Origin: Clostridiaceae bacterium
Lineage (GTDB): Bacteria > Bacillota > Clostridia > DSM-8532
Assembly: GCA_012522505.1 (NCBI GenBank)
Contig: JAAYKJ010000019.1
Location: 1-57,402, forward strand
Direction: 5' to 3'
Length of the DNA: 57,402 bases
Position numbers and translations under genes: made by a program. This document shows positions 45,201-51,783 of the stretch, one piece after another (position 1 is the stretch's first letter; each line of letters opens with the position of its first letter). Below the pieces are notes generated by a model. The model did no database searches and had not been told where the DNA came from. It saw nothing but the letters and a program-made list of their open reading frames with translations.

Positions 45201-45729
45201 GATCTGGTCCGGGGTAGGGCAAGAGAATGACCGCCCGATGATGCCTGGTGGAATGTTGTATTTCAGGGTGGATGACCCGCTTATTCGAACCGATGGAGAT
45301 ATGGACGAAGAAGAGATTGAACGTTCCATTATGAAGCAGCTTAAGATGAAGGGGCTGCTACTTGCAGATGTAAAGCTAATCCGGAGCATGGACCATGAGA
45401 TTGATGGTTCTTCGCTGATCCTTCCTGCAGCGATTAACAAGGGGGATGTGATCGGGAAGTATTCCTCTGTCGCAACGAGGGAACAGTTCAAGCTTCTGAG
45501 AAACTATGTCAGGCATCTGCTGAAGGATTTAAGCCAGGAGATTATCAAGGGAACGGTGACGATCAATCCTACGAAAGCCAAAGGGGGAACAGCCTGCAAA
45601 TATTGCAGCTATCTTCCGATCTGTCAGTTTGACACCGGAATGCGGGATAATGCTTACCGTATTTTATATGAAAAGGATAACGACGCGGTATGGGAGATTA
45701 TGGGGAAATCCATTGGGGAGGATCTATGA
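42244..45729 (+). CDS. addB: ATP-dependent helicase/nuclease subunit B AddB
   Basis: A 1161-residue subunit of AddAB, the Gram-positive counterpart of RecBCD. AddAB unwinds and trims double-strand breaks to Chi-like sites to load RecA. A P-loop GRAGSGKT starts at residue 8. The iron-sulfur cluster ligands are Cys786 (TACPFSFF) and Cys1118-x2-Cys1121-x5-Cys1127, the same spacing as in Bacillus AddB. Between them is the RecB-type nuclease region with LRIVDYKSG. The start at 42244 has AGGAG six bases upstream; the frame is open far upstream over ftsZ, which is shadow. The TGA overlaps the addA ATG (ATGA). Confidence 0.95.
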   Translation: MSVRFIYGRAGSGKTFFCLDELKTRIHEGGYSPLVFLVPEQYTFQAERDLIAMLKTGGILGTEVLSFQRLVFRVFSETGGITYPHLHPAGKNIILYRIMDKMKSSLKYFAKSAEQPGFVGTLSTLLTEFKRYNVTPEKIDAVLESLQDDNPLKEKLPELGNIYAAFEEIINQRYRDPDDDLTLAAKKLKYSTRYRGAEIWVDGFTDFTPQEYAILHELFLQAKRVTITLTTDTIDREASELDVFAMAKKAYRKLVWLAQQDNITCELPIGLNQKPLFRFRHNRELFHLEQNLHAHPYKVYSHPTKQMALFSAVNIFSEIETAAADILRLCRDEGLRYRDITVVARNLQSYEKLIEVVFADYGIPCFLDRKLDIVNHPLVRLILSMLAIFIDNWSYESVFRYLKSGLTGIEQSNIDQLENYVLACGIRGSKWTAAEPWSMVPELLPDDRKSKEYTRLLKEIHQTRLAIIKPLQEFRERTKGRRTASEFCTALFDFLCELNIPEQLERLIEDFKQSGDLILANEYSQVWNIVMELLDQTVEAMADETFGVERFANMMTIGFGEYKIGLIPASLDQVLVGSVERSRSHTVKALYILGANDGIFPASGADEGILSDDDRTCLNQAGMELAKSSRSKAYDENFLVYRALTTPSDYLRISWPIADQEGKSMRPSIIISRLRKLFPNINETSNILPPASGAEVLEQIASRNMTFRSLTSALRQKADGREILPVWVDVARWFSQKEQWKEHFRIMREALQYRNLAQPVMRDKIPKLYGEPVVSSVSRLERYTACPFSFFIQYGLGAKERRIFEMAPPDVGTFLHAAIERFSKMMQESEKLPGLVSEDGSKPITWRNFDREWCEETVSQIIDDSLRKMKGSGISSSKRFTALTVRLKRVVTRAIWLIAEHIRRSSFDPVDYEVGFGEGEKYPPIIIELDSGEKVQLLGRIDRIDAMETTDGRYLRIVDYKSGSKDFKLSNVYYGLQLQLITYMDAIWSGVGQENDRPMMPGGMLYFRVDDPLIRTDGDMDEEEIERSIMKQLKMKGLLLADVKLIRSMDHEIDGSSLILPAAINKGDVIGKYSSVATREQFKLLRNYVRHLLKDLSQEIIKGTVTINPTKAKGGTACKYCSYLPICQFDTGMRDNAYRILYEKDNDAVWEIMGKSIGEDL

Positions 45730-48700
45730 TAGAGGGCGAAGTAAAGCTTCAAAATGAAAAAATTGCGCAGCAGGAGCACAAGTGGACGGATGAACAGCTA
45801 CAAGCCATCTGCAGCAGAGATTGTAGCCTTCTTGTTGCCGCTGCGGCAGGGGCAGGGAAAACAGCGGTTCTTGTAGAAAGAATCATCCGGAAGCTCACTG
45901 ATAAAACAGCCCCGGTGGACATTGACCGGATGCTCATTGTAACATTTACAAATGCTGCCGCTACCGAAATGCGGGAGCGGATCGGTGAGGCAATTTCAAA
46001 AGAGCTTGATCGCCAACCGGAATCTGAAAGCCTGCGGCGACAGTCGAGCCTTTTGGCAAAGGCCAGTATCACAACCATCCATTCCTTTTGCAGGGATGTA
46101 ATCAAAAAACATATTGAACATATTGATCTGGATCCGGGTTTCAGGGTGGCCGATGAAACAGAAAGCACGCTGATGCGCCTGGAGGCCATGACCGAACTGT
46201 TTGAGGACCAATACGAACAGGAAAAGGCCGACTTTAACGAGCTTTTGGAATGCTATGGCGGGAACCGAAATGATCAGCCTGTTCAGGACATGGTCATGAA
46301 CTTGTATGATTTTATTCAATCAAGCCCGTGGCCGGATAAATGGCTGGAGGAGAAGCTTGATGCGTTGGATGTATTGCCTGGTATGGATTTTTCACAGACA
46401 CCCTGGGGCAGGGTGTTGATAAATACAATTCAGCTGGAGCTTTCGGGGCTGAAGCATATGCTTGATCAAGCCCTTGGAATGCTAAATTCTACGACGGGGT
46501 TGGAGAGATATGCGCCGGTTTTTGAAGAAGAGCGGGGGGAAATTGAGAAGCTGATCCAAATCATTACGCAGACACCTCATGATTCGTGCGGGCCTACTGA
46601 TGATAGCAGTAAGGTTGACGGATGTTGGGATGTACTATATGAAGCCCTTCATGCGATGGAATTCAAAAGGCTTCCCCCAGCTGGGAAAAACGCCGACAAA
46701 GAAAAACAGGCGTCTGTCAAAGAAATTCGAGATACGGTAAAGACTGTGATCAACACAAAACTGAGGAAAAAACTTGTGAATGCCCGTTCAGAAGAGATCA
46801 TCCGGGATTTGCAAAGGCTTTCCCCGGTCTTGCGCTGCCTCGGCCGGTTGGTACGGGATTTTTCCCAACGGTATCAGCAGAAAAAGAAAAAGCGAGCCAT
46901 ACTGGATTTTAATGATCTGGAGCATCTGTGCCTTGAAGTATTGACAGAACACACCGAAACGGGTATCGTTCCATCCCAGGCAGCACAGCGGTATCAGGAA
47001 CAGTTTGAAGAGATCATGGTGGATGAGTACCAGGACAGCAATCTGGTTCAGGAGATCCTTATCCAAATGATTTCAAGGCATAAACCCCACCGTCCCAATG
47101 TTTTCATGGTTGGTGACGTAAAACAAAGCATTTACAGGTTCAGGCAAGCCAAACCCGAGCTGTTCCTTGAAAAATATAATACATTCTCCCAGGACTCGGG
47201 CAGCCTCTTCAGAAAAATTCTGCTGTTTAAAAATTTCCGCAGCAGAGGCGAAGTGCTGGATGGTGTAAACTATATTTTCAAACAGATCATGTCTGAAAAA
47301 ACTGGAGAAATGGATTACACAGACGCAGAAGCCCTGAACCACGGTGCTTTATTCCCAGAGTGTTCCCAGCCAGAAAGTATTGTTGGCGGGCCTGTGGAAT
47401 TCCATCTGCTCCAAACGGAAGGCACATACTTCTCTGACGAAGAGGAAGAGCCTGATGACGGCAGTGGGGACGATTCAAAAAGAGAAGAGGAAGAGAGCCT
47501 GGACAATATCCAGAGCGAAGCCAGACTGGTTGCTCTTCGGATTCTTGAACTGATGGCACCAGATGCTGATGGCCGGTACTTCCATGTTTTTGACAAGAAA
47601 AAGAAGGAATACCGCAAGGCAGCGTTCAGGGATATCGTTATTTTGCTGCGTGCAACAAAAAACTGGTCAGAGGTGTTCCTTGATGAGTTGGCAGGAATGG
47701 GGATTCCCGCTTTTGCCGATACGGGAACAGGCTTTTTCAAAACCATAGAAATACAGGTTGTTTTATCCCTTCTGCAGATTATTGACAATCCGCTGCAGGA
47801 TATCCCGCTTTTATCGGTGCTTCGCTCTCCAATTTGTGCGTTTTCAACCAATGAGCTTGCAGAAGTACGTCTTGTCCAACGCAAGGTTTTGCTGTATGAT
47901 GCGCTGAAGCTTTTAGCGCAAAAGCATCCTGTAAGCGAGGGCCCTGAGACAATGCGGACTGCCGCGGAAAAGGCTGCGGGCTTTCTGGAAAAGCTTTCCC
48001 GGTGGAGGGAGTTATCATTGCACATGCCCACCGATCAGCTGCTGTGGTTTCTGTATCAGGATACCGGGTACTATGGTATGGTAGGCGCTATGCCCGCCGG
48101 AGAACAAAGGCAGGCAAACCTCCGCATCCTGTACGACAGGGCCAGGCAATTCGAAGAGACCAGTTACAAGGGGCTTTTCAATTTCATCCACTTTATCGAC
48201 AGGTTGAAAAGCAGCCGGGGCGATATGGGCAGTGCCAAGATCCTCGGAGAAAACGACAATGTGGTTCGTATTATGAGTATTCATAAGAGCAAAGGACTGG
48301 AGTTTCCGGTGGTGTTTTTGTCCGGATGCGGAAAGCGGTTTAATCTAACAGATATGAACAGAAGCGTTCTACTGCATCATCAACTGGGCTTCGGTGCCGA
48401 TGTGGTGGATTACCGTCTGCGCATTTCAAGGCCATCGGTTTTAAAAAGGGCGATACAGGAGAAAATCAGGGTGGAAACCCTGTCAGAGGAGATGCGGATC
48501 CTGTATGTTGCAATGACACGAGCCAGGGAGAAGCTTATTATCACAGGTGCTGTGCGCAGCATAGAAAAAAAGGTCTCTCGATGGCTTCAAACAGCGTGTG
48601 TCCACGAAGACAAACTACCCGCCCATGCGATACTGAAAGGTTCCGGCTATCTGGACTGGATAGGCCCTGCATTGATACGCCATGCAAATGATGCAGGGGA

Positions 48701-49601
48701 AAAATCTCGTAATGTGCTGATGTCCTGTGCAGGTATCGGAACAGAATATTCAGGAAAGCCTATGATAGATCCATCACGGTGGCAAATGAGAATATGGAGC
48801 AAAAATGATGTTCTCGCCGAAAAGATATCTGAGGTCCATGAAGAGAAGGAACTCTTGGACTGGCTGGACGGTCAACTGGTCGCTTCTGAGCCGTATGAAT
48901 ATTTCACCGAGGTTGAAAGACGCTTGGGATGGGATTACCCATATACCAAAGCGAACACAACGCCAGCCAAGATCACCGTAACCGAACTGAAGCGGCGCTT
49001 CGAAGCCGAACTGGCCGATGTTACACGGATTCCCGTCCAGATACCGCCATTGGTGAAAAAGCCAATGTTTCTGGAAGTTGAAAAGGGTTTGAGTGCAGCA
49101 GAAAAAGGAACGGTGTTACACTTTGTTATGCAGCATCTGGACTTCGGAAATTCAAACCTGCAGCAACAACTCGATGCGATGGTAAAAAAAGATCTGCTAA
49201 CCGAACAGCAGGCAGAGACTGTTAGGCTTGGGAAAATAGTCCGTTTTCTGGAAACTGACCTGGGACGGCGGATGATGGCTGCAAAAAGGATATACAGAGA
49301 GGTACCGTTTAATCTTGAGATTTTCTGCCATGAGCTCTTCCTTGAAATGATAGAAGAGGAATACAAGGATGAGACCCTTTTATTGCAGGGAATTATTGAC
49401 TGCTATTTTGAAGAACCGGATGGGCTTGTTTTGCTGGACTATAAAACAGACTATGTGCCGCAGGGAGGCATTGCACAGATCATTGGGAAATACAGGGTCC
49501 AGCTTGATTATTACACCAGGGCCCTTGAAAACCTTACCCGCCAGCGGGTAAAGGAAAGGTACCTGTATCTGTTTTCCGTCGAGCAACTGGTGGAAATGTG
49601 A
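45726..49601 (+). CDS. addA: ATP-dependent helicase/nuclease subunit A AddA
   Basis: A 1291-residue UvrD-type 3'-5' helicase with a C-terminal nuclease domain, partner of AddB. In order: the Q-motif KWTDEQLQAI, Walker A AAAGAGKTAV, TFTNAAATEMRERI (motif Ia), the DEYQDSN Walker B box, the GDVKQSIYRFRQAKPELF motif, IMSIHKSKGLEFPVVFL, YVAMTRAREKLIITG (motif VI), then a nuclease domain with GTVLHFVMQ, QGIIDC and LLDYKTDYV. All catalytic residues look intact. It starts at ATG 45726 overlapping addB, with GGGGAGG directly before. It converges with the Phd-Uma2 gene, 13 bases away. Confidence 0.96.
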   Translation: MIEGEVKLQNEKIAQQEHKWTDEQLQAICSRDCSLLVAAAAGAGKTAVLVERIIRKLTDKTAPVDIDRMLIVTFTNAAATEMRERIGEAISKELDRQPESESLRRQSSLLAKASITTIHSFCRDVIKKHIEHIDLDPGFRVADETESTLMRLEAMTELFEDQYEQEKADFNELLECYGGNRNDQPVQDMVMNLYDFIQSSPWPDKWLEEKLDALDVLPGMDFSQTPWGRVLINTIQLELSGLKHMLDQALGMLNSTTGLERYAPVFEEERGEIEKLIQIITQTPHDSCGPTDDSSKVDGCWDVLYEALHAMEFKRLPPAGKNADKEKQASVKEIRDTVKTVINTKLRKKLVNARSEEIIRDLQRLSPVLRCLGRLVRDFSQRYQQKKKKRAILDFNDLEHLCLEVLTEHTETGIVPSQAAQRYQEQFEEIMVDEYQDSNLVQEILIQMISRHKPHRPNVFMVGDVKQSIYRFRQAKPELFLEKYNTFSQDSGSLFRKILLFKNFRSRGEVLDGVNYIFKQIMSEKTGEMDYTDAEALNHGALFPECSQPESIVGGPVEFHLLQTEGTYFSDEEEEPDDGSGDDSKREEEESLDNIQSEARLVALRILELMAPDADGRYFHVFDKKKKEYRKAAFRDIVILLRATKNWSEVFLDELAGMGIPAFADTGTGFFKTIEIQVVLSLLQIIDNPLQDIPLLSVLRSPICAFSTNELAEVRLVQRKVLLYDALKLLAQKHPVSEGPETMRTAAEKAAGFLEKLSRWRELSLHMPTDQLLWFLYQDTGYYGMVGAMPAGEQRQANLRILYDRARQFEETSYKGLFNFIHFIDRLKSSRGDMGSAKILGENDNVVRIMSIHKSKGLEFPVVFLSGCGKRFNLTDMNRSVLLHHQLGFGADVVDYRLRISRPSVLKRAIQEKIRVETLSEEMRILYVAMTRAREKLIITGAVRSIEKKVSRWLQTACVHEDKLPAHAILKGSGYLDWIGPALIRHANDAGEKSRNVLMSCAGIGTEYSGKPMIDPSRWQMRIWSKNDVLAEKISEVHEEKELLDWLDGQLVASEPYEYFTEVERRLGWDYPYTKANTTPAKITVTELKRRFEAELADVTRIPVQIPPLVKKPMFLEVEKGLSAAEKGTVLHFVMQHLDFGNSNLQQQLDAMVKKDLLTEQQAETVRLGKIVRFLETDLGRRMMAAKRIYREVPFNLEIFCHELFLEMIEEEYKDETLLLQGIIDCYFEEPDGLVLLDYKTDYVPQGGIAQIIGKYRVQLDYYTRALENLTRQRVKERYLYLFSVEQLVEM

Positions 49602-49614
49602 TGATACAGCATTT

Positions 49615-50340
49615 CTATATCAGGTGTGGGAAAATATGCTCTACAGGCACCGCAAGCCCTTTAAACAGAAAAGATTCAGCAATATCGGTTGCTTTACACA
49701 GCTGATACTGGGAAACCTTGTAATCTTTAAAATGGTATAAATATACCTCCTGTTTCGTGGGGTTTACAATCCAGTATTCGGAAATACCGCTTTCGGAATA
49801 CAGATCCAGCTTCTTTACCATATCTTTGTTGACTTCTGATTCGGACAGCACTTCAACAACGAGGGACGGAACACCGGTATACCTGCCTTTGCTGTTGATT
49901 TTGCTGGTATCGCAGATGATGAGGATATCGGGCTGAACAATATTGATATTATCCTGGTCCCCGAGCCTGTGTAAGGTTACATCAAATGGCGATGTTAATG
50001 GACTGCATTTTTTTCCCCTAAACCATTGATACATGATACTAAGAACTTCCACAATTATTCTTTGATGGTCGTAGGATGGTGAAGACATCAAGTATACTTC
50101 ACCATCAATATATTCGTATCTGTTATCACTGGTATCCGACAGTTTGATGAATTCCTGGTAGGATATTTTTCTTTGGTAAGCATTTGCCTGCTCAGATACT
50201 GAATGACTGCCAACTTCCCTGTTATAGCTTTTTATGACAACAACCCTTTTCCCGTTTTTCGTAACAATGATATCTTCCCACGCGGCAAGCTTAAGATACC
50301 GACCAAAATTATTCTGGGCTTCGGTTGAAGTAATTTCCAT
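49615..50340 (-). CDS. Phd/YefM antitoxin-Uma2 nuclease fusion protein
   Basis: A 241-residue protein made of two parts. Residues 1 to about 40 (MEITSTEAQNNFGRYLKLA, then IIVTKNGKRVVVIKSY) look like a Phd/YefM antitoxin DNA-binding fold. After a linker, about 60-235 is a Uma2/DUF820 PD-(D/E)xK nuclease-like domain: DNRYEYIDGEVYLM, then VQPDILIICD, PSLVVEVLS (acidic site) and KKLDLYSESGISEYWIVNP. Uma2 proteins are very widespread and of uncertain function. Fusing the Phd half would let the protein bind its own promoter, where two TTAGCTAAT boxes are found. It could be a self-controlled nuclease, a toxin-antitoxin or a defence factor. The start at 50340 has AGGTGAT just upstream; an earlier ATG at 50358 does not. 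Confidence 0.8.
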   Translation of the reverse strand: MEITSTEAQNNFGRYLKLAAWEDIIVTKNGKRVVVIKSYNREVGSHSVSEQANAYQRKISYQEFIKLSDTSDNRYEYIDGEVYLMSSPSYDHQRIIVEVLSIMYQWFRGKKCSPLTSPFDVTLHRLGDQDNINIVQPDILIICDTSKINSKGRYTGVPSLVVEVLSESEVNKDMVKKLDLYSESGISEYWIVNPTKQEVYLYHFKDYKVSQYQLCKATDIAESFLFKGLAVPVEHIFPHLI

Positions 50341-50361
50341 GTGATCACCTACCATCACAAA

Positions 50362-50388
50362 TTAGCTAATATTCAAAAGTTAGCTAAT
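50362..50388. promoter_or_regulatory. Operator: two TTAGCTAAT boxes 18 bp apart
   Basis: TTAGCTAAT at 50362-50370 and 50380-50388, each holding the palindrome TTAGCTAA. They lie directly after the -10 of the minus-strand promoter and cover the expected transcription start. Two sites one and a half to two turns apart suit a dimeric Phd-type repressor. Confidence 0.65.
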
Positions 50389-50391
50389 ACA

Positions 50392-50420
50392 AGTATAGCA
50401 AACATTAACATATATGTCAA
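50392..50420 (-). promoter_or_regulatory. Consensus sigma-A promoter of the Phd-Uma2 gene
   Basis: On the minus strand TTGACA (plus 50415-50420), a 17-base spacer and TATACT (plus 50392-50397). It is close to perfect consensus and abuts the operator boxes. Confidence 0.8.
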
Positions 50421-50441
50421 TAAAAAACCCCTGCAAAACAG

Positions 50442-50471
50442 TTGTGGCAAACACACGTTCTGTTATATAAT
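50442..50471 (+). promoter_or_regulatory. Promoter of sbcD-sbcC
   Basis: TTGTGG at 50442-50447, an 18-base spacer and TATAAT at 50466-50471. It is back to back with the Phd-Uma2 promoter, 21 bases between the two -35 elements. Confidence 0.6.
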
Positions 50472-50523
50472 ATTCCTAAGCTTGACTTTTCTTATTAAAC
50501 GCATCAATAAAAAGGAGGCACCT

Positions 50524-51783
50524 ATGCGAATTCTGCACACATCCGACTGGCATCTGGGAAAAAGCCTTGAACAGATCAATCGCCTGGATGAACAGCGAGC
50601 GTTCATCGATTTCCTTGTCGGGGCGGTAGAAAAGCAACATATCGATTTGGTTATCATTGCAGGTGATCTTTTCGACACTTATAACCCTTCTGCTGCAGCG
50701 GAGGAGTTGTTTTACGAAGCGATAGACAGGCTGAATGATAAAGGGAGAAGGCCAATAGTGGTCATTGCGGGAAACCATGACAACCCGGAACGGCTTTGTG
50801 CTGCAAGCCCACTGGCTTATAAGAATGGCATTATTCTACTGGGTTACCCAAGCAGTGACGCAGGTGACTGGAAAATAACTTCCGAAACGATTAAAATAGC
50901 AGATTCGGGGCCGGGCTGGTTAGAGCTTTGTGTTCCGGGATGCGATGAGCATACGGTTATATTAACGCTGCCATATCCTTCCGAATCCAGGCTTGAAGAG
51001 GTTTTGACGGTTGATTATGATGAAATAAGTCTTCAAAAGGCTTATTCCGAAAAGATTGGTCTCATCCTGGGCAAACTGAGCAGCAAGTTCAGGAATGACA
51101 CGGTAAATCTTGTTACAGGCCATCTTTTCCTGCGCGGTGGTAAAGAATCGGATTCAGAAAGGACGCTTCAGGTGGGTGGCGCATTAACTGTAGATCCCAG
51201 TGTGATACCTGCAAACGCACAATATGTAGCGCTGGGGCACCTGCACCGTCCGCAGGAAATTCGCCATGCGCCTTGCCCGGTGTTTTATTCTGGTTCTCCG
51301 CTGGCTTACAGTTTCTCTGAAGCAGAGCACAGCAAGGCGGTTTTTATCATTGATGTTGTCCCGGGGGAACAGGCCATTGTTGAACCTCTTTATTTGAATT
51401 GCGGCAAACCCCTCAGAAGATGGATAGCTGATGAAGGTATCGGACAGGCCATCAAGTGGTGCGAAGAGGGCAGGGATGAAAACGCCTGGATCGATCTTGA
51501 GATCGTAACCGACCGGGTTTTTACGCTGGAGGAGCAAAAGACACTGCGTACATTGCACCCGGGCATTATCAATATCCGACCAAGGATAAAACAGGATGCA
51601 GGTGCAATCGTCAGTCCGGAAAGCAGGGAAGGCAGGAGAATCGATGTACTGTTCAAAGACTTTTACCGATACAGGATGGGTGTGGAAATTCCGGACGACT
51701 TGATGGAAGCTTTTATAGAAATTATCAACGAGGAAGATATAGAACCTGGTGGAGGTGACAAAGATGAGACCAAAACTTCTTGA
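50524..51783 (+). CDS. sbcD: DNA repair exonuclease subunit SbcD (Mre11 family)
   Basis: A 419-residue metallophosphoesterase-fold nuclease, the bacterial Mre11. With SbcC it opens DNA hairpins and removes protein-blocked ends. Metal-binding motifs are intact: HTSDWHLGK (Asp8, His10), AGDLFDTYNP, AGNHDNPERL, GHLF, and GHLHRPQ. The start at 50524 follows AAGGAGG by about seven bases. The frame is open upstream into the promoter region but without an SD. It overlaps sbcC by 20 bases. Confidence 0.96.
   Translation: MRILHTSDWHLGKSLEQINRLDEQRAFIDFLVGAVEKQHIDLVIIAGDLFDTYNPSAAAEELFYEAIDRLNDKGRRPIVVIAGNHDNPERLCAASPLAYKNGIILLGYPSSDAGDWKITSETIKIADSGPGWLELCVPGCDEHTVILTLPYPSESRLEEVLTVDYDEISLQKAYSEKIGLILGKLSSKFRNDTVNLVTGHLFLRGGKESDSERTLQVGGALTVDPSVIPANAQYVALGHLHRPQEIRHAPCPVFYSGSPLAYSFSEAEHSKAVFIIDVVPGEQAIVEPLYLNCGKPLRRWIADEGIGQAIKWCEEGRDENAWIDLEIVTDRVFTLEEQKTLRTLHPGIINIRPRIKQDAGAIVSPESREGRRIDVLFKDFYRYRMGVEIPDDLMEAFIEIINEEDIEPGGGDKDETKTS

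Follow-up and report, generated by a model that had tools for sequence, protein, structure and literature searches.

The locus described here raises the question of what two identical short palindromes do at the start of a gene in which part of an antitoxin is joined to a putative nuclease. It lies within a window of 57,402 nucleotides (the whole stretch of DNA that was analysed), in which the following features are needed for the argument.

45690-49601, plus strand: addA/rexA-like helicase-nuclease gene, a neighbour (directly before sbcD in two congeners)
49615-50340, minus strand: Phd-Uma2 fusion gene encoding 241 aa from the ATG at 50340; translation might also begin earlier, from a GTG at 50358
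49702-50157, minus strand: Uma2 domain, PF05685 (4.1e-30), a putative PD-(D/E)XK nuclease
50224-50334, minus strand: Phd/YefM N-terminal domain, PF02604 (PhdYeFM_antitox), profile positions 4-42 of 74
50355-50371 and 50373-50389, no strand: two copies of a 17-nt direct repeat with an 18-bp period and 88% identity, the boxes inside
50361-50370, no strand: candidate operator box 1, ATTAGCTAAT, a 10-bp palindrome, gene-proximal; core TAGCTA at 50363-50368, centre at about +20 of the predicted transcript
50380-50387, no strand: candidate operator box 2, TTAGCTAA, an 8-bp palindrome; core TAGCTA at 50381-50386, centre at about +2, over the inferred transcription start
50392-50420, minus strand: predicted promoter of the fusion gene, TTGACA (50420-50415), 17-nt spacer, TATACT (50397-50392), with TG before the -10 hexamer
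50442-50471, plus strand: predicted divergent promoter of sbcD, TTGTGG-18-TATAAT
50524-51783, plus strand: sbcD, a neighbour and not part of the circuit

A motif search on the plus strand returns two exact copies of TTAGCTAAT, at 50362-50370 and 50380-50388, 18 bp apart from start to start, which confirms the twin identical 9-base sites, 18 bases apart, described in the initial annotation. Both hold TTAGCTAA (50362-50369 and 50380-50387), an 8-bp palindrome identical to its own reverse complement, and the boxes are both palindromes and direct repeats. Following the minus strand from 50425 to 50336, the promoter is succeeded by four bases, TTAGCTAA, a second TTAGCTAA 18 bp further on, and the ATG. 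Two articles describe Phd/YefM antitoxins as repressing through short palindromes that lie in pairs over their promoter, these being, for YefM and Axe, TGTACA palindromes 12 bp apart (PMC7730913, PMC4803016). Paired palindromes over the gene's own promoter are also found here, with a different core and a different spacing. The expectation per shuffled window is 0.03 for a TAGCTA pair and 0.02 for the exact 18-bp pair (up to two mismatches). Throughout the 3,287,973-bp genome, no other TAGCTA pair has its cores separated by 3-17 bases (a spacing of 9-23 bp), and the exact 18-bp pattern has a single match, six other places being reached at three mismatches. As a single site with at most one mismatch, TTAGCTAAT is not enriched in the window (8 matches versus 14 expected).

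The predicted promoter of the fusion gene carries 11 of the 12 consensus bases, in agreement with the near-perfect TTGACA-17-TATACT previously noticed directly before the boxes, and the sbcD promoter does run back to back with it, 21 bases separating the two predicted -35 hexamers. For sbcD, the promoter scan ranks GTGGCA-16-TATAAT (50444-50471) first. Since the scan of this stretch yields two promoter-like sites versus 1.0 (sd 1.3) in shuffled sequences, both promoters are regarded as plausible predictions.

The N-terminal part of the protein belongs to the Phd/YefM family, as it scores 30.8 bits with PF02604 (cut-off 29.8) and 30.5 bits with TIGR01552 (cut-off 20.8), while the remainder is a member of the Uma2 family (PF05685, 105 bits versus a cut-off of 27). 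The C-terminal segment with which an antitoxin neutralises a separate toxin is absent, because the PF02604 match stops at position 42 of 74 and is followed by a linker and the Uma2 domain; the missing rest of the profile presumably leads into the toxin-binding tail. Neither does the locus have the two-gene organisation of a type II toxin-antitoxin system, as there is a single gene between addA and sbcD, with no toxin gene, and the only Phd-family match in the genome (E <= 0.001) is the fusion gene itself. Residues D138, E163 and K177, which we take to be the likely PD-(D/E)XK residues of the Uma2 domain, are invariant in all 141 fusions collected in this study, as are E76, Q93, Q136, P137, S166 and D173. 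A profile of a 15-row alignment (A1) matches PDB entries 9y1l and 6okh over the Uma2 part. The AlphaFold model (mean pLDDT 56, and 28-39 over residues 1-30) is too poor for assigning DNA-facing residues. A search of viral contigs returned no relative of the fusion, and the matches in plasmids (19 records) and in a phage (one record) begin only at residue 52, that is, in the Uma2 half, none of them covering 80% of the query.

Searches with the window protein found relatives in 13 of 41 genomes. With A1, they were found in at least 42 of 391 genomes of the class (threshold 1e-20) and, at a threshold of 1e-60, in 11 of 33 genomes of the order, five of the six of the family of genome G154 and at least 57 of the 398 genomes sampled from the phylum. 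Phd-Uma2 fusions thus constitute a widespread gene family, which is functionally uncharted. A protein was counted as a fusion when its profile match started at position 6 or earlier and ended at position 150 or later, and the removal of duplicates left 141 fusions out of 178 domain matches; matches without a locus were taken by place, with the exception of a single N-terminal match (G072:C51) and some fragments from the ends of contigs. The 120 bp upstream of these genes contain TAGCTA in 82 of 141 cases (171 copies) and CGTACG in 31 (46 copies). Neither word occurs in an equal stretch of coding sequence, and mononucleotide shuffles give 4.4 and 2.0, respectively. The other common self-complementary hexamers consist of A and T only (AATATT in 34, TAATTA in 34 and TTATAA in 24 of the 141, with 17.9, 19.6 and 18.6 in shuffles).

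A tree of the whole proteins (140 rows, one of the 141 having been lost through a name clash) separates two clades, A with 86 members, among them the window protein, and G with 53. They also differ in their N-terminal pattern, which is roughly M-x-[VI]-x-[STA]-T-[ED]-x-[QK]-N in clade A and x-x-[IV]-T-A-T-E-[LF]-K in clade G; the pattern was formulated with the promoters already known, but the whole-protein tree yields the identical two sets. Within clade A, TAGCTA is present within 150 bp upstream in 82 of 86 genes, and at least two copies are present in 69; after dinucleotide shuffling, the corresponding means are 8.8 (maximum 18) and 0.4 (maximum 2). The word is confined to this interval: it appears in the preceding bin in 5 of 86 genes, and in 3, 3 and 0 of 86 in the bins covering positions 0 to 450 after the start. 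If one mismatch is allowed, 81 of the 86 promoters have at least two sites within 120 bp, as compared with 1 of 86 for a control word. Thirteen clade-A promoters hold a single copy, six of them with no near-copy at a preferred spacing, and four lack a box within 150 bp. One of these four genes (L103) has a TAGCTA pair about 270 bp upstream. Separately, the clade-A gene L152 (genome G707) has a Phd part whose N-terminal sequence (HHFSNTIL...) does not fit the rest of the family, and it has no exact boxes; it is perhaps a decaying copy.

The initial annotation had proposed looking for the boxes before other Phd-Uma2 genes; for clade A this check is positive, and the counts are accompanied by negative controls. 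Among Uma2 genes without a Phd part (14 matches with loci, out of at least 53 class matches that lack the N-terminal part), TAGCTA precedes one and CGTACG none. Of 21 stand-alone Phd-family matches in the order, 18 have a locus and were examined over 140 bases ahead of the profile match (57 in one case); TAGCTA precedes none of these 18 genes and CGTACG one (L205). Given these controls, the TAGCTA box goes with the clade-A fusion and not with Uma2 or Phd genes generally. The accompanying statement that fusions lacking the boxes would refute the proposal was, on the other hand, too strict: the sister clade does lack TAGCTA, but mostly carries CGTACG instead.

In clade G, exact CGTACG lies within 150 bp upstream of 33 of the 53 genes (shuffles 1.4, maximum 4), the other 20 being devoid of the exact word, and TAGCTA occurs in none; with up to one mismatch, CGTACG is found within 120 bp in 45 genes and is absent in eight. 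Exact TAGCTA and exact CGTACG never occur together in any of the 141 promoters. Two genes that branch at the base of clade G (L012 and L102) have a single TAGCTA in one case and neither word in the other. Among the genes with an exact box, box class and clade switch together once on the tree, and therefore the match between clade and operator represents one evolutionary event followed by conservation, not repeated covariation. Both clades coexist in 24 of 78 genomes (UBA5301, the source of L029, and G596 appear to be one genome and were counted once), and there every gene has the palindrome of its own clade or none, never that of the other. The fact that box type follows the clade inside single genomes is an argument for each fusion protein acting on its own promoter, rather than for one external regulator shared by all.

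Several individual loci deserve mention. In genome G154 (L066), two Phd-Uma2 genes lie side by side on opposite strands, with three TAGCTA copies on one and three CGTACG copies on the other. In genome G413 (L109), two such genes of different clades are arranged in tandem on the same strand, each preceded by the box type of its clade. Where a clade-G promoter has no CGTACG within 120 bp (e.g., L075, L092, L107 and L108), degenerate or TGTACA-type sites suggest that the box has drifted between CGTACG and the classical TGTACA core. The stand-alone Phd/YefM-family gene L205 (genome G386), from the order of the window genome, has a CGTACG pair exactly 12 bp apart, which is the yefM spacing with a changed core.

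Candidates for the determinant of box class were also considered and discarded. Residue 9, which we aligned by eye with Arg10 of YefM, is Gln in the window protein and Lys in 53 of 53 clade-G proteins. It was rejected as the sole specificity switch because eight clade-A genes with Lys9 (e.g., L009, L010, L039, L130, L135 and L148) keep TAGCTA. Asn10 alone was likewise rejected, given that L018 and L020 combine Asn10 with CGTACG. A T-E motif common to the first Phd helix and to the recognition helix of RptR, a repressor discussed below, does not by itself account for their shared operator either, as clade G has the motif too.

The spacing between neighbouring TAGCTA copies (n = 90) is 9 bp in 22 cases, 17-18 bp in 15 (7 of them at 18 bp), 20-23 bp in 41, 30 bp in five and some other value in seven, so that the preferred spacings (9, 17-18 and 20-23 bp) comprise 78 of the 90. 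For CGTACG, 11 of 15 pairs have a spacing of 20-23 bp. The promoter could be called well for 68 clade-A genes, and every one of these has one or more boxes whose centre falls in the interval from -45 to +30, a result partly dictated by the shortness of the stretch that was searched. In 30 genomes bearing fusions, 41 of the 75 TAGCTA pairs listed (of 93) are located within 200 bp before a fusion gene. By spacing, these are 40 of the 54 listed pairs with preferred spacings and 1 of the 21 with others, a split that is partly circular because the classes were drawn from the same promoters. Seven pairs not associated with fusions were read individually, and all but L196 could be placed. Three of them (L180, L187 and L192) fall within long frames belonging to other genes, and another three (L185, L190 and L195) between frames. 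L185 (genome G002, from the genus of the window; 1501-1515) is a 9-bp pair located 60 bp before an unrelated AAA_15/AAA_21 ATPase gene with an AbiEii-like match, L190 is a 12-bp pair before an amidohydrolase-family frame, and L195 is a 10-bp pair before an 88-aa frame with no Pfam match. A few further targets of the box may therefore exist outside the window genome.

The surroundings of the fusion gene bear on how it came to this site. From the addA stop to the sbcD ATG there are 922 bp (49602-50523), which hold the opposite-strand fusion gene and the predicted sbcD promoter, whereas in two congeners there is no fusion gene at this place and addA lies 21 and 34 bp from sbcD. An sbcD match (E <= 1e-40) exists in seven other genomes of the order, and in the five that are not congeners the 182-1500 bases upstream contain no addA match, so the adjacency of addA and sbcD is shown for the genus only. 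The closest relative found, L029, is 61% identical over the protein and belongs to another family of the phylum, while congener fusions with an N-terminus are 40-49% identical. On account of this and of the adjacency in congeners, the fusion gene looks like an arrival at this site, perhaps a horizontal one. Apparently, the insertion of a single gene split addA from sbcD and left the latter with its own promoter.

Taken together, the comparative data give strong support to the initial proposal of tight autorepression by the Phd half. The boxes would be a paired operator through which the fusion protein represses its own gene, a reading that we hold with a probability of roughly 0.87, because the boxes recur throughout the clade, the controls are negative and the sister clade uses another palindrome. 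Of a Phd/YefM antitoxin, the protein keeps no more than the N-terminal portion responsible for DNA binding and dimerisation, and this is joined to a Uma2 domain that retains its putative active-site residues. According to the model, one dimer of the Phd part would sit on each 6-8-bp TAGCTA palindrome; the two dimers, 18 bp or 1.7 helical turns apart and hence not on one face of the DNA, would cover the stretch from just behind the -10 hexamer to about +24 and block the RNA polymerase, and as an outcome the putative nuclease would be kept scarce. The sequences themselves show the boxes, the promoter match, the fusion, the recurrence within the clade and the lack of the box in the controls; binding, repression, cooperation of the two dimers and nuclease activity are what we infer from them.

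Other explanations of the boxes were weighed against autorepression. An origin by chance could be imagined, since the intergenic region is AT-rich and single TTAGCTAAT sites are no more frequent in the window than expected, but the low number of pairs in shuffled windows and, above all, the recurrence in 82 of 86 relatives already refute it, and its probability is practically nil. It could also be argued that the Phd part aims the nuclease at TAGCTA arrays, in which case the boxes would serve as targets for cleavage or homing and repression would be a side effect. The invariance of the putative catalytic residues, which indicates that the domain seems to be under selection, and the apparent insertion between addA and sbcD would fit this proposal. 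Nevertheless, the position of the boxes in the 68 well-called promoters is that expected for repression, the window genome has no second TAGCTA pair with a 9-23-bp spacing, and cutting its own promoter would be costly for the cell, all of which makes targeting highly unlikely. Just as little credit can be given to the idea that the boxes serve both directions and that the protein also controls sbcD, and hence SbcCD repair. Although the two predicted promoters are back to back, the boxes are downstream of the fusion promoter and more than 50 bp from the -35 hexamer of sbcD. Moreover, sbcD, sbcC and addA were sought next to the other fusion loci examined, in flanks of up to 1.5 kb around the first hundred loci and in 0.4 kb of upstream sequence for the rest, and none was found, and the neighbourhood is not conserved, as the short addA-sbcD distances in the two congeners attest. 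The earlier suggestion that binding could affect SbcCD is thus unsupported, and a designed link to it is unlikely.

The last alternative is that an outside regulator binds the boxes and controls the fusion gene. A candidate of this type would be a homologue of RptR from enteropathogenic Escherichia coli (EPEC), which has been shown experimentally to bind three TAGCTA repeats in 9-bp steps cooperatively, and whose two sites with the nine bases between them scrambled, that is, 18 bp apart, repress like the wild type (PMC12255303). This protein regulates both Type I restriction (in rptR-hsdMSR defence islands) and itself, and it is reported across gammaproteobacteria together with Type I restriction genes (PMC12255303). 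We located the rptR gene and its promoter, which does carry three TAGCTA sites; the product is a 79-aa protein of the PF24718 family. However, BLASTP detects no similarity between RptR and the fusion protein (E = 42), and a search for homologues of RptR or PF24718 in 30 genomes with fusions, including that of the window, returned no match, although such homologues could have been missed, as these searches ran without a positive control. A common regulator, moreover, would not yield box types that follow the gene's own Phd clade inside single genomes. Control from outside is accordingly considered quite improbable, and autorepression is retained as the preferred explanation.

What goes beyond the initial annotation is the family-wide operator code, the second operator class, and the identity in core and register with the operator of RptR. 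If autorepression holds, the family gains a predictable regulatory code, and the two operator classes offer a natural set of proteins for studying how Phd domains choose between AGCT and GTAC. In a broader interpretation, to which we give an even chance, the fusions would be one-gene, self-repressing, defence-type nucleases whose Phd part has evolved a new recognition class, TAGCTA in place of the TGTACA/CGTACG type, with two mutually exclusive operator classes separating paralogues within a cell, and they would have converged on the RptR operator in its core, its 9-bp register and the logic of its arrays. If this is true, fusion proteins and RptR could cross-regulate where both meet. Titles and the beginnings of abstracts in the open-licence literature revealed no paper describing Phd-Uma2 fusions with an operator.

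Among the systems already known, yefM-yoeB and axe-txe are similar in that the N-terminal domain of the antitoxin binds paired short palindromes overlapping the promoter and represses it (PMC7730913), as is proposed here for the candidate operator pair. They differ in the operator, TGTACA at 12 bp from centre to centre as opposed to TAGCTA at 18 bp (mostly 9, 17-18 and 20-23 bp in the family), and in gene organisation: no toxin gene accompanies the fusion, and a Uma2 domain takes the place of the remaining part of the antitoxin. The N-terminal domain of Phd from Enterococcus faecalis is reported to bind one perfect 10-bp palindrome near the TATA box, with Arg10 and Asn14 near the bases; unlike the fusion, that system is described as having a single site, a separate Doc toxin and a fold distinct from that of E. 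coli Phd (PMC13034048). The solo Uma2 proteins of cyanobacteria also have no partner toxin or antitoxin gene and are treated as likely solo toxins, but they are said to be rarely associated with known antitoxins (PMC2701414), whereas here the DNA-binding part of an antitoxin is fused and the boxes come along with it.

The closest resemblance in the operator is to RptR, which shares with the fusions the TAGCTA core, a register in multiples of 9 bp and the regulation of DNA-cutting genes. The window pair, at 18 bp, is of this operator type, as are, in the family, the spacings of 9 bp (22 of 90) and 18 bp (7 of 90), next to 41 of 90 at 20-23 bp. The proteins themselves are unlike, RptR being described as all-helical (PMC12255303) and matching PF24718 (HTH_73), a profile to which the fusion has no match at E values up to 0.1. 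As no similarity between both proteins was detected, and no RptR homologue was matched in the 30 genomes with fusions, the operator that they share is apparently the result of convergence. It would provide a clear case in which convergence, as well as cross-talk, can be studied in DNA-cutting systems whose repressors are unrelated.
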